Shown in pieces: positions 57,650 to 61,616 of a DNA stretch of 64,000 nucleotides. Each line of letters starts with the position of its first letter. Position 1 is the stretch's first letter. The DNA lies in contig NZ_CP150277.1 of the NCBI RefSeq assembly GCF_037977385.1, positions 3,263,001 to 3,327,000 on the forward strand. Direction: 5' to 3'. The stretch is from Terribacillus sp. FSL K6-0262 (GTDB taxonomy: Bacteria > Bacillota > Bacilli > Bacillales > Amphibacillaceae). The position numbers and the translations under genes are program-made. The notes beneath the pieces were generated by a model, which was not told the origin of the DNA, ran no database searches, and worked only from the letters and a program-made list of their open reading frames with translations.

Positions 57650-59167
57650 ATGACACATAATAAAAGTTATTGGCGTGAAAAGACGGAAATTCCAGAGTTT
57701 GAATCGCTGCGTTATGACACCGAAAGCGAAATCGTCATTGTCGGCGGAGGCATCACCGGCATCGTTACGGGATATATGCTGGCCAAAGAAGGTCGTCAAG
57801 TGACCATCCTCGAGGCAGATAGTCTTTATAGCGGTACGACCGGCTATACGACAGCAAAGCTCACGGCACAGCATGGGCTGATTTATGATGAATATATCCA
57901 GCATTTCAATACAGATACGGCTAAGACGCATTATGAAGCGTGCATGGACGCAATCGCTTTTGTCAAGGAAACGACAGCGGCACATGGCATTGATTGCAAT
58001 CTGACGAAACAGGATGCCTATGTCTATACCAAGGAAAAGCAAAACGTCCATAAATTGGAGACAGAGCATGAGGCATATCAGAAGCTTGGTATACAGGGGG
58101 AACTCTCGGACACCATACCGCTTCCCTTTGAAATAGAAAAGGCATTGATCATGAAAGACCAGTACCAGTATCACCCGCTGAAATTCCTCAATGGTTTGCT
58201 GCATGTATTCCTCGATAATGGAGGGAAAGTATATACCGATACTCCGGTTGATACAATCGAAGAAGGAAAGGATACGACCGTTGTAACGAAGAACGGGTTG
58301 AAAGTGACGTGTAAGAAGGTTGTGGTCGCCTCCCATTTCCCTTTTTATGATGGACAGGGCTTTTACTTTGCCAGATTATATCAGGATCGCTCCTATGTGG
58401 TGGCCGCAAAGCCAAAGAACCCTTATCCCGGCGGCATGTATATCAATGCCGACACGCCTTCCCGATCCATCCGCAGTATCGAAACAGAGGAACATGGCAC
58501 CTTGCTCCTGATCGGCGGTGAGTCCCACCGTACAGGCGAGGGGCATCCTGAAGAAATGTATTATAAAGAATTGACGGACTTCGCAGCTTATCTGGGCACG
58601 GAAACACCAATCTATATGTGGTCCGCACAAGATATCGTCACATTGGATAATCTCCCTTATATAGGATATATAAGCAAAGGCAACGATAATATCTTGGTCG
58701 CCACAGGCTATCGTAAATGGGGCATGACCAGCAGTATCGTTGCCGGGTTGGAAATAGCATCTCTTATCGATTCAGGTATCAGCCGCTACAAAAATATTTA
58801 TCAGCCATCCAGGTTTCACGCCGACCCGGATTTGGGTAGTGTAACTAAGAATGTAATGGAAGTGGCGAAGGAATTCATAGTTGGGAAACTGGAACAGCCC
58901 TATGAATATGTCCCGCACCTGAAGCGGGGCGAAGCAACCAAAGTCCGGTTCAACGGTCTGCTCCTTGGTGTCTATAAAGACGAAAACGGAGAAATACATC
59001 AAGTGGATACGACTTGTACCCATATGAAATGTGAGGTTAATTGGAACAGTGCAGAATCCAGCTGGGACTGTCCTTGCCATGGATCACGTTTTACCGGTAC
59101 AGGCGAAGTGATCGAAGGCCCGGCCAAAAAACCGCTGAAAAAATTGGATCGAGGGCTGAACAGTTAA
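57650..59167 (+). CDS. FAD-dependent oxidoreductase with C-terminal Rieske domain
   Basis: A 505-aa protein. Residues 35-400 form a DAO-type FAD domain (IVIVGGGITGIVTGYMLA near 28, GYTTAKLTAQHG, and DNLPYIGYI with the C-terminal FAD contact). Residues 420-500 carry a Rieske 2Fe-2S domain with CTHMKC and CPCHGSRF. This fused architecture (YhfW in B. subtilis) has no proven substrate. GGAGGATAAG lies before the ATG. The stop codon overlaps the first hexamer of the putative Pho box, and no terminator is visible before sqdB. Confidence 0.92.
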   Translation: MTHNKSYWREKTEIPEFESLRYDTESEIVIVGGGITGIVTGYMLAKEGRQVTILEADSLYSGTTGYTTAKLTAQHGLIYDEYIQHFNTDTAKTHYEACMDAIAFVKETTAAHGIDCNLTKQDAYVYTKEKQNVHKLETEHEAYQKLGIQGELSDTIPLPFEIEKALIMKDQYQYHPLKFLNGLLHVFLDNGGKVYTDTPVDTIEEGKDTTVVTKNGLKVTCKKVVVASHFPFYDGQGFYFARLYQDRSYVVAAKPKNPYPGGMYINADTPSRSIRSIETEEHGTLLLIGGESHRTGEGHPEEMYYKELTDFAAYLGTETPIYMWSAQDIVTLDNLPYIGYISKGNDNILVATGYRKWGMTSSIVAGLEIASLIDSGISRYKNIYQPSRFHADPDLGSVTKNVMEVAKEFIVGKLEQPYEYVPHLKRGEATKVRFNGLLLGVYKDENGEIHQVDTTCTHMKCEVNWNSAESSWDCPCHGSRFTGTGEVIEGPAKKPLKKLDRGLNS

Positions 59168-59213
59168 CAACTTGTTTACACTATCTCAAACCTTCCTTTA
59201 CACCATATTATTT
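59164..59213 (+). promoter_or_regulatory. Putative PhoP binding region (Pho box) upstream of sqdB
   Basis: Hexamers start every 11 bases: TTAACA (59164), TTTACA (59175), TCAAAC (59186), TTTACA (59197) and TTATTT (59208). Three of five fit the B. subtilis PhoP repeat TT(A/C/T)A(C/T)A, and the phasing is that of known sites. A TATAAT follows at 59235-59240 with no good -35, as expected for an activated promoter. Distance to the start site is slightly longer than usual. Confidence 0.62.
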
Positions 59214-59234
59214 TTAATCGCAGCATCGTTAGCA

Positions 59235-59240
59235 TATAAT
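59235..59240 (+). promoter_or_regulatory. -10 element of the sqdB promoter
   Basis: TATAAT with a poor -35 (TTTTAA) 17 bases upstream, suggesting activator dependence. It is 48 bases before the start codon. Confidence 0.55.
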
Positions 59241-59287
59241 TGTTAACGAACGTACCAAGAAATGTTGATGTCACAGGAGGATGAGTC

Positions 59288-60436
59288 ATGAAAATTGTTG
59301 TAGCTGGTGGAGATGGTTTCTGCGGATGGCCGACAGCACTTTATCTGTCCAAACAAGGTCATGAAGTAGCAATCGTCGATAACTTGGTAAGACGTAAGTA
59401 CGATGAAGAATTACGATCCAATTCCGTAACACCAATTTATTCCTTGGAAGAGCGAGTCGCAAAGTGGAAAGAGAAGACCGGCAAGGAAATCAAAACATAC
59501 ATAGGCGACCTGAATCATTATGATTTCCTGGCTGAGGTCTTCCGTCAGACGGAGCCTGATGCATTTGTGCATTTTGCAGAACAGCGATCGGCTCCGTACA
59601 GCATGATCGACCGTGAGCATGCTGTATATACGCAGCAGAACAATGTGATCGGCAACTTGAATGTCCTTTTTGCAATCAAGGAATTCGCTCCATCTTGTCA
59701 TCTGATCAAGCTTGGTACGATGGGAGAGTACGGCACCCCTAATATTGATATCGAAGAAGGCTATATCGAAATAGAGCATAAAGGCAGAAAGGATAAACTG
59801 CCATTCCCGAAACAGCCGGGATCTTTTTATCACTTATCCAAAGTGCATGACAGCCATAACATCATGCTCGCCTGCAAAATCTGGGGCATACGCGCAACAG
59901 ACCTGAACCAAGGCGTCGTGTATGGTCTCCATACAGAAGAAACAAAGCTCGATCCGGTGCTGGCGAACCGCTTTGATTACGATGGTGTCTTCGGCACTGC
60001 GCTGAACAGATTCCTTATCCAGGCGGCCACAGGGCATGATATCACTGTCTATGGCAGCGGCGGACAGACACGGGGCTTCTTGAATATCACCGATACGATC
60101 CGCTGTGTGGAAATCGCCGCGGAAAATCCTGCTGATGCCGGAGAGTTCCGGGTATTCAATCAATTCACGGAAAGCTTCTCCGTGAAGGAGCTTGCTGAGA
60201 AAGTACAGAAGGTGAGCCGGGAGCAAGGACTGGACCCTAAAATCACATCTATCGAAAATCCGCGGGTGGAAGCAGAGGAGCATTATTATAATGCAGTGAA
60301 TACGCGCCTTCGCGATCTTGGCCTTGAACCGAATCTCCTTACGGATGACGTGCTCCGCGGCATTCTGGAGACGGCTATCGAGCATAAGGACCGGGTAATC
60401 AAAGAAAACGTGCTTCCGACGGTTACGTGGAGATAG
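59288..60436 (+). CDS. sqdB: UDP-sulfoquinovose synthase (SQD1/SqdB type)
   Basis: A 382-aa short-chain dehydrogenase/epimerase-fold enzyme. SQD1 proteins convert UDP-glucose and sulfite to UDP-sulfoquinovose. The NAD-binding start is [20 protein letters not shown]. Family-specific stretches are [36 protein letters not shown] (catalytic Thr/Tyr region), [12 protein letters not shown] with the YxxxK-like lysine, and [22 protein letters not shown] and [10 protein letters not shown] near the C-terminus also fit. AGGAGGATGAG precedes the ATG. An SqdX-like gene follows after nine bases. Confidence 0.93.
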
Positions 60437-60445
60437 GGGCATACG

Positions 60446-61600
60446 GTGAAAATCGTCATCATCACCGAGACATTCCTGCCATCCACGGACGGTGTCGTCA
60501 CCCGGCTCACCGAAGCGATCAAGTTCCTCCGCAGCCAGAAGCATGAAGTCGTCGTCATCGCTCCCGATTTAGGTGTTACCGAATACGAAGGCGCGCTTGT
60601 CGAAGGAGTAGGGACGGTGACGATGCCATTTTACCGTTCCAAGAAGTTTTCCTTGCCGACAAGACGCATCAAGACTTTACTTGAAAAGCATCAGCCGGAT
60701 CTCGTGCATGTGGCGAATCCAGCCCTGGTCGGGATAGCAGGAATCTATTATGCGCACAAGAAGGGTTTGCCGCTATTGGCATCCTATCATACGCATATAC
60801 CGAAATACCTGGATTACTATAAGTTCTACAAACCCTTGAAACCATTATTTTGGTGGCATTTCCGCAAGCTTCATAATACAGCTGACTTGAATCTGTGTAC
60901 GTCGGCTGCCATTAAACAGGAGCTTGACGAGCATGGCTTCGAGCGTATGCATGTCCTGCGCAGAGGCGTGGATGTGGAGAAGCGCCATCCGGCTTATTAT
61001 TCACAAGGCATGCGTGAGCGGCTTTTGCAAGGGCATCGCGGGAAAAAATTGCTCATATTTGTAGGCAGGCTGGCAATCGAGAAGGAAATCCATAAGATTC
61101 GTCCATTGCTGGATGAGCGGGATGATCTGGCATTAGCCATCATCGGCGATGGACCAGCCCGGAAAGAACTGGAGAGGGTATTCGAAGGGACGAATACATT
61201 GTTTACCGGCTTTCTCCATGGGGAAGAGCTGTCGCAGGCATTCGCTTCTGCCGATGCCTTTATTTTCCCGTCCATTACCGAGACGCTGGGTTTGGTCATC
61301 TTGGAAGCAATGGCTTCCGGTCTCCCTGTCCTTGCAGCCAAAAGCGGACCAACATTGGAACAGATCGAGGAAAGCAAAACAGGATTCCTTTTTGAAAACG
61401 AAAATGTCGCCAGCATGAGTCACGCAGTCGGTAAACTGGATGATCAAGAATTAGTGGCAAAAATGAAAAAGAATGTGCGAATGGAAGCGGAGAAGCATTC
61501 CTGGAAAAATGCATCCAGCGAATTATTCGATTTCTATTTAGCAACCATCCAAGCAAGAACACCCGTATATCAAGCAGTGCAGAACCCGAGCTCCAGATAA
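60446..61600 (+). CDS. sqdX: SqdX/SQD2-type sulfoquinovosyltransferase
   Basis: A 384-aa GT4 glycosyltransferase. The N-terminal ITETFLPSTDGVVTRLTEAI, YHTHIPKYLDYY, RRGVDVEKRHP with MRERLLQGH, FVGRLAIEKEIHKIRPLL, GDGPARKELERVF and FPSITETLGLVILEAM follow the pattern of cyanobacterial SqdX and plant SQD2. These transfer sulfoquinovose from UDP-sulfoquinovose to diacylglycerol. Other GT4 lipid glycosyltransferases share part of this pattern, but the sqdB neighbour decides. The GTG start follows AGGGGC. The stop codon lies in the loop of the terminator. Confidence 0.88.
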   Translation: MKIVIITETFLPSTDGVVTRLTEAIKFLRSQKHEVVVIAPDLGVTEYEGALVEGVGTVTMPFYRSKKFSLPTRRIKTLLEKHQPDLVHVANPALVGIAGIYYAHKKGLPLLASYHTHIPKYLDYYKFYKPLKPLFWWHFRKLHNTADLNLCTSAAIKQELDEHGFERMHVLRRGVDVEKRHPAYYSQGMRERLLQGHRGKKLLIFVGRLAIEKEIHKIRPLLDERDDLALAIIGDGPARKELERVFEGTNTLFTGFLHGEELSQAFASADAFIFPSITETLGLVILEAMASGLPVLAAKSGPTLEQIEESKTGFLFENENVASMSHAVGKLDDQELVAKMKKNVRMEAEKHSWKNASSELFDFYLATIQARTPVYQAVQNPSSR

Positions 61601-61616
61601 CGGAGCCGGGTTTTTG
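61583..61616 (+). terminator. Terminator of the sqdB-sqdX operon
   Basis: AACCCGAGCTCC pairs with GGAGCCGGGTT (one mismatch) around a 7-base loop, followed by TTTT. Confidence 0.82.

Follow-up and report, generated by a model that had tools for sequence, protein, structure and literature searches.

The 64,000-nucleotide stretch analysed here (the window; positions 3263001-3327000 of the single-contig genome of Terribacillus sp. FSL K6-0262, 3,346,030 bases, 99.97% complete) carries two adjacent genes, sqdB and sqdX, which are best read as a two-gene operon predicted to make the sulfolipid sulfoquinovosyl diacylglycerol (SQDG); we put the probability of this reading at about 0.82. Such an operon had been named here in an original prediction made from the letters of the DNA. 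Two points go beyond that prediction and are worth further attention: a probable PhoP-type box in front of sqdB and a gap in the supply of sulfite. In the proposed pathway SqdB would join uridine diphosphate (UDP)-glucose and sulfite into UDP-sulfoquinovose, and SqdX would move the sulfoquinovose onto diacylglycerol, yielding SQDG. Phosphorylated PhoP is predicted to switch the operon on at phosphate shortage in this genus. With the operon on at low phosphate, SQDG, which is an anionic membrane lipid free of phosphorus, could replace phosphatidylglycerol and thus spare phosphate.

SqdB and Arabidopsis SQD1 are identical at 249 of 381 positions (65%) in a gap-free alignment over the full length. 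A phmmer search of the PDB matched three SQD1 sequences over their whole length (E ~1e-174) and no others up to 1e-10. The residues T144, Y181 and K185 of SqdB correspond, with equal spacing, to Thr145, Tyr182 and Lys186 of SQD1, which sections of PMC4388408 describe as catalytic. The genome encodes one full-length copy of SqdB; the only other match was partial, at 27% identity.

A tree of SqdB proteins was built by a quick method from 58 of the 96 available rows plus SQD1. The window protein falls within a set of 13 rows made up of Bacillaceae, Salinicoccus and unnamed relatives (support 95 in the Shimodaira-Hasegawa-like approximate likelihood ratio test, SH-aLRT), whereas eight cyanobacterial rows are parted from the other bacterial rows by a branch of their own (SH-aLRT 96). 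A recent gift from the sampled cyanobacteria is therefore unsupported. Identity to SQD1, the catalytic residues, the tree and linkage to sqdX all bear out the assignment of SqdB as a UDP-sulfoquinovose synthase of the SQD1 type. Two actinomycetotal loci, from Helcobacillus (L065) and Dermabacter (L068), also contain an sqdB-sqdX pair, with SqdB at 71-73% identity; their SqdB branch lies beside Bacillales and not beside Rubrobacter, and a transfer is possible. Genomes G020 and G024 encode an SqdB-like protein at 47-48% identity, which is a second copy in G020 and the sole one in G024 and may serve another sulfoquinovose pathway.

The product of the second gene belongs to glycosyltransferase family 4 (GT4), as the Pfam families PF13439 and PF00534 were both over cut-off. 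A GT4 tree was made from a chosen subset: 51 rows of SqdX type, all but one of them linked to sqdB, and 17 rows of other GT4 proteins. One branch (SH-aLRT 95) parts the SqdX-type rows from the others, and the window transferase is nearest to sqdB-linked transferases, cyanobacterial ones included. It shares 46-47% identity with the transferases linked to sqdB in Phormidium and Roseofilum, GT4 enzymes on the same side of the tree. These two, our points of comparison with cyanobacterial SqdX and plant SQD2, we take to be SqdX from their linkage to sqdB and from gene order. The enzyme is predicted to be a UDP-sulfoquinovose:diacylglycerol sulfoquinovosyltransferase, and tree placement and linkage to sqdB uphold its naming as SQD2/SqdX type. 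A phylogeny of both proteins had been proposed as a check, and the two trees support placement in the SQDG clades. The sequence motifs quoted for SqdB (17 letters) and for the transferase (RGVD...HP...MRERLLQG) are both present. As a hallmark RGVD stands in part: it is enriched in sqdB-linked transferases (64/85 distinct sequences versus 1/33 distinct other GT4 proteins, the one being L128, also listed as L152), and is neither universal nor exclusive.

Linkage of the two genes was followed in the best 80 of at least 576 stretches encoding an SqdB relative, a set dominated by close kin. It includes Halobacillus, Thalassobacillus, Oceanobacillus, Salinicoccus, Marinococcus, Planococcus, Paenibacillus and Alicyclobacillus as well as Dermabacter, Rubrobacter and cyanobacteria; in the Bacillota pairs the same two genes stand in the same order in most loci. 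An SqdX relative was present in the sampled DNA of 72 of the 80 loci, and in 71 it follows sqdB on the same strand at a distance of at most 300 bp; in L089 the distance is 3.2 kb. Among the eight loci lacking it in the sampled DNA, the DNA of L064 ends just past sqdB, and Alicyclobacillus macrosporangiidus (L063, genome G045) has an SqdX-type transferase elsewhere in the genome. Pairwise identities of SqdB and SqdX run parallel over 50 loci (Mantel r 0.87, 0/999 permutations as high). Together with the full-length match to SQD1 the linkage places the pair far above chance, and chance resemblance of either open reading frame (ORF) was rejected on the phmmer E value, the gap-free alignment and the GT4 tree.

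SqdB was found at E <= 1e-60 in 21 of 41 genomes (the source genome and 40 relatives), one of them at just 47% identity. All 10 genomes searched within the genus contain it, the other nine proteins being 96-98% identical to that of the window. In an even sample of the class, own genome included, 27 of 200 genomes had SqdB at E <= 1e-150.

The consensus of the PhoP repeat is TTNACA. Upstream of sqdB four hexamers follow one another with an 11-base period (Table 1). Three of the four repeats are perfect; the third, TCAAAC, agrees at 2 of 5 specified positions, and the first shares bases with the stop codon of the gene before it. Sections of PMC4415409 describe PHO boxes, those of Bacillus subtilis included, as 11-base direct repeats. 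The pattern of the three good repeats, composed after the site was seen, had no second site in the window, even with one mismatch allowed, and occurred in 0 of 100 shuffles. As an independent check, the plain pair TTNACA-N5-TTNACA was counted across the genome: it was found 22 times (two overlapping) versus 2 for the pattern reversed. Some of these 22 precede genes for an alkaline phosphatase (PF00245), a Na/Pi cotransporter that carries a PhoU domain, PstS (over the cut-off of TIGR02136) and a response regulator of the OmpR type. Judged by eye from ORF lists, two permeases, two PstB-like ATPases and a PhoU-like gene come after the PstS gene, and the response regulator has a malate-dehydrogenase-like gene on one side and a histidine kinase on the other, the place of phoPR in B. 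subtilis. The response regulator passed no cut-off among the 25 of 72 NCBIfam matches shown (best YycF, 274 versus 340), so that it is called PhoP on the strength of its neighbours and the box. Other pairs precede ComK, a GDSL lipase, a TarF-like protein, an amino acid permease and a TetR regulator; several have no convincing same-strand gene downstream, and three lie inside long same-strand ORFs. The ComK site (L104, G000:C1:2351694), a pair resembling a Pho box, lies about 45 bases upstream of an ORF of the ComK family and may point to phosphate control of competence.

Within the genus the box scored at least 14/20 in 10 of 10 genomes, with a shuffle p <= 0.01 in nine and 0.045 in L008. The exact hexamer pair is kept in six; the first repeat is decayed in three and a four-base insertion is found in one. 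Conservation is 95% in the box columns, 85% in the spacers and 87% in the upstream coding end. A test of whether sqdB operons of Bacillota generally have such a box, with the period fixed at 11 bases, did not find it outside the genus, and the switch therefore looks specific to this genus. A candidate -10 element, identical in 10/10 genus genomes, lies downstream. At 17-base spacing its -35 position (59212-59217) reads TTTTAA, a poor match such as would be expected of an activated promoter. A sigma-70 scan of 58900-61900 returned zero sites.

These observations make a PhoP box of the B. subtilis type probable. The competing view, that these repeats do not serve PhoP and that expression of the operon is constitutive or under another control, seems to us unlikely, with a share of probability that has to be reckoned with. 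It draws on the poor third repeat, the 32 bases between the end of the box and the candidate -10, the decay or insertion in four of ten genus genomes and the fact that the motif was spotted first and scored later. The excess of hexamer pairs over the reversed control, some of them before pstS-, phoP-, alkaline-phosphatase- and Na/Pi-cotransporter-type genes, argues for the PhoP box. Among the matches listed, no open-licence PMC text dealt with a Pho box before sqdB or with Pho control of sulfolipid genes in bacilli. The box renders the phosphate-sparing idea directly testable.

Table 1. Features of the sqdB-sqdX region (window coordinates)
Feature	Position	Strand	Details and basis
Probable PhoP (Pho) box	59164..59202	+	TTAACA-N5-TTTACA-N5-TCAAAC-N5-TTTACA, 11-base period; pattern searches of window, genome and genus
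Candidate -10 element	59235..59240	+	TATAAT; identical in 10/10 genus genomes
Ribosome-binding site of sqdB	59275..59280	+	AGGAGG; read from sequence
sqdB, predicted SQD1-type UDP-sulfoquinovose synthase	59288..60436	+	ATG start, 382 aa, T144-Y181-K185 triad; NCBIfam, phmmer, alignment
sqdX, predicted SQD2-type GT4 glycosyltransferase	60446..61600	+	GTG start, 384 aa; Pfam, linkage, tree
Candidate intrinsic terminator, overlapping the sqdX end	61590..61616	+	Terminator scan (statistically weak), sequence

Of the two substrates of SqdB, UDP-glucose can be accounted for, the pyrophosphorylase GalU being over cut-off in the source genome. The other substrate is sulfite. PF01507, the family of 3'-phosphoadenosine 5'-phosphosulfate (PAPS)/adenosine 5'-phosphosulfate (APS) reductase, to which CysD also belongs, was over cut-off in 0/10 genus genomes versus 5/10 other sqdB-positive genomes, and ATP sulfurylase (PF01747) gave no match in the genus (0/10 versus 8/10). 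In the source genome PF01507 matched a 532-codon frame with 20.9 bits (cut-off 22.5) over profile positions 3-76; it was rejected as a reductase and is taken as another ATP-pyrophosphatase. Alkanesulfonates and cysteine were dismissed as sources of sulfite too: the alkanesulfonate monooxygenase SsuD was over cut-off in 0/10 genus genomes, with weaker relatives up to 172 versus 518 bits, and cysteine dioxygenase had no match at all in the ten. In 14 known genomes used as controls, PF01507 was detected in 14, PF01747 in 5, PF05995 in 1 (B. subtilis) and TIGR03565 over cut-off in 2. With ATP sulfurylase and PAPS/APS reductase lacking over cut-off, the genus apparently cannot convert sulfate to sulfite by the known route, which raises the question of what feeds SqdB with sulfite. 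An intact operon thus appears to persist in a genus that has no known sulfate-to-sulfite route. The ten genomes concerned (G000-G009) show the apparent loss of sulfate assimilation beside the retained operon.

Identity to SQD1, the kept catalytic residues, the two trees and the linkage of the genes give good support to SQDG as the predicted product. Several points weigh on the other side. SqdB scored 497.3 bits on the NCBIfam model for UDP-sulfoquinovose synthase, NF041015, with a cut-off of 575, and the whole length was matched; we guess that this model favours the archaeal Agl3 branch. A cut-off is a threshold set by a curator and no trait of the enzyme, and the match to SQD1 outweighs the missed one. 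For the transferase an SqdX model was absent among the 25 of 47 NCBIfam matches shown, and the best match was glucosaminyl-phosphatidylglycerol (GlcN-PG) synthase with 158 bits (cut-off 480). The GT4 tree was built by a quick method, its outgroup branches are long, and the warnings of the program apply to it. The box columns, at 95% majority, are barely above the flanking non-coding columns (92-93%). Outside the genus, 4 of 85 loci reached p <= 0.02 (~1.7 expected), and the exact hexamer pair occurred within 500 bp before sqdB in 0 of 85, a difference from the genus. No sulfite source was found in the genus by searches that left thiosulfate, persulfide oxidation and uptake aside.

This last point favours an operon that is intact and idle or conditional. 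Sulfite would normally be lacking in a cell that does not reduce sulfate, and SQDG would form only when the cell meets sulfite or another source of sulfur in its surroundings. The ten genus genomes, lacking PAPS/APS reductase and alkanesulfonate monooxygenase over cut-off and any match to ATP sulfurylase or cysteine dioxygenase, count in favour of this explanation, and we still consider it distinctly improbable. The two genes, linked in 10/10 genus genomes, are full length and stop-free in all ten and SqdB is 96-98% identical, so that function is probably kept; the three routes outside the searches could also supply sulfite. A scenario that we hold tentatively, at a little under even odds, joins the two new points: the genus may have put SQDG synthesis under PhoP while losing assimilatory sulfate reduction, taking its sulfur from reduced or organic sources through an uncharacterised sulfite-forming route. 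If true, phosphate starvation would be tied to sulfur scavenging. We know of no description of such a link for plants or cyanobacteria.

UDP-sulfoquinovose could also be made and its sugar sent to a surface glycan or protein. There is a parallel in Agl3 of Sulfolobus, which according to sections of PMC4388408 makes UDP-sulfoquinovose for glycoconjugates. GT4 acceptors are many, and the choice of acceptor is unreadable from sequence. Against this the sole operon partner of sqdB groups with cyanobacterial sqdB-linked transferases, and the ORF lists, read by eye with no family-library search of the neighbours, show no glycan-building gene adjoining the pair. A membrane sulfolipid is moreover reported, in sections of PMC4744853, for Bacillus coahuilensis with sqd1 and sqdX. 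A glycan or protein target is accordingly very unlikely. Also very unlikely is that the transferase makes another glycolipid, such as a glucosyl or glucosaminyl lipid, and stands beside sqdB by accident. In favour of this, its best NCBIfam matches include lipid glycosyltransferases other than SqdX, namely GlcN-PG synthase and monoglucosyl-diacylglycerol synthase, all far below cut-off. Against it, the 71/80 linkage with matched divergence favours a joint function of the two proteins. GlcN-PG synthase was rejected as a name because it is also the top model, far under cut-off, for the sqdB-linked transferases of a cyanobacterium (L079, 168 bits), Alicyclobacillus, Halobacillus and Rubrobacter; the NCBIfam lipid-transferase models thus do not discriminate.

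SQDG is generally presented as a lipid of photosynthetic membranes, and the original prediction implied that an SQDG operon in a Bacillaceae chromosome is a surprise. It is already known and common: a pair has been published for B. coahuilensis, and sqdB was in 27/200 genomes of the class. Sections of PMC4744853 report sqd1 and sqdX in B. coahuilensis and sulfolipids in the membranes of three strains (data not shown in that 2016 paper), and passages in PMC2890564, PMC9594981 and PMC12890257 restate this from Alcaraz et al. 2008. Likened by these descriptions, the two systems share the same two kinds of gene, the family Bacillaceae and a proposed phosphate-sparing role, membrane sulfolipids being reported for B. 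coahuilensis. They differ in that those sections of PMC4744853 are silent on a Pho box before sqd1, and the words 'sulfate' and 'sulfite' are absent from its main text. SqdB genes in non-photosynthetic bacteria are noted in part of PMC4388408. SQDG also appears in the Paenibacillus polymyxa lipidome in sections of PMC6878767 that name ceramide and sphingomyelin as well, so that carry-over of SQDG from the medium is possible. The occurrence of the pair in many genera of Bacillota (Halobacillus, Salinicoccus, Paenibacillus, Alicyclobacillus) means that SQDG in soil or brine need not derive from phototrophs. A sulfonolipid of Bacillus acidocaldarius was reportedly described in 1976. Among the matches listed, no open-licence PMC text dealt directly with SQDG in Alicyclobacillus, Marinococcus, Salinicoccus or Halobacillus.

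The ORF list and the sequence confirm the two reading frames of the original prediction and the nine bases between them (60437-60445). Its single terminator stands as a candidate: a hairpin followed by a T-rich stretch was found at the end of sqdX, and the terminator scan, with 5 sites in 3 kb versus 2.9 (sd 1.6) in shuffles, is weak by itself.

A conserved wider neighbourhood was rejected, since relatives of the flanking genes occur in few loci outside the genus. The gene directly upstream of the pair (57521-59167) looks by eye, with no family search run, like a flavin adenine dinucleotide (FAD) oxidoreductase with a Rieske-type end; it has relatives near sqdB in five other loci (L014, L020, L027, L028 and L044). 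The neighbourhoods of L012-L016 cover about 1.5 kb either side of sqdB. The downstream gene, seen as its first 41-44 residues, adjoins the pair in 10/10 genus genomes and has a 27% relative in L067. L014 and L027, whose SqdB and SqdX proteins do not differ, may come from a single species.

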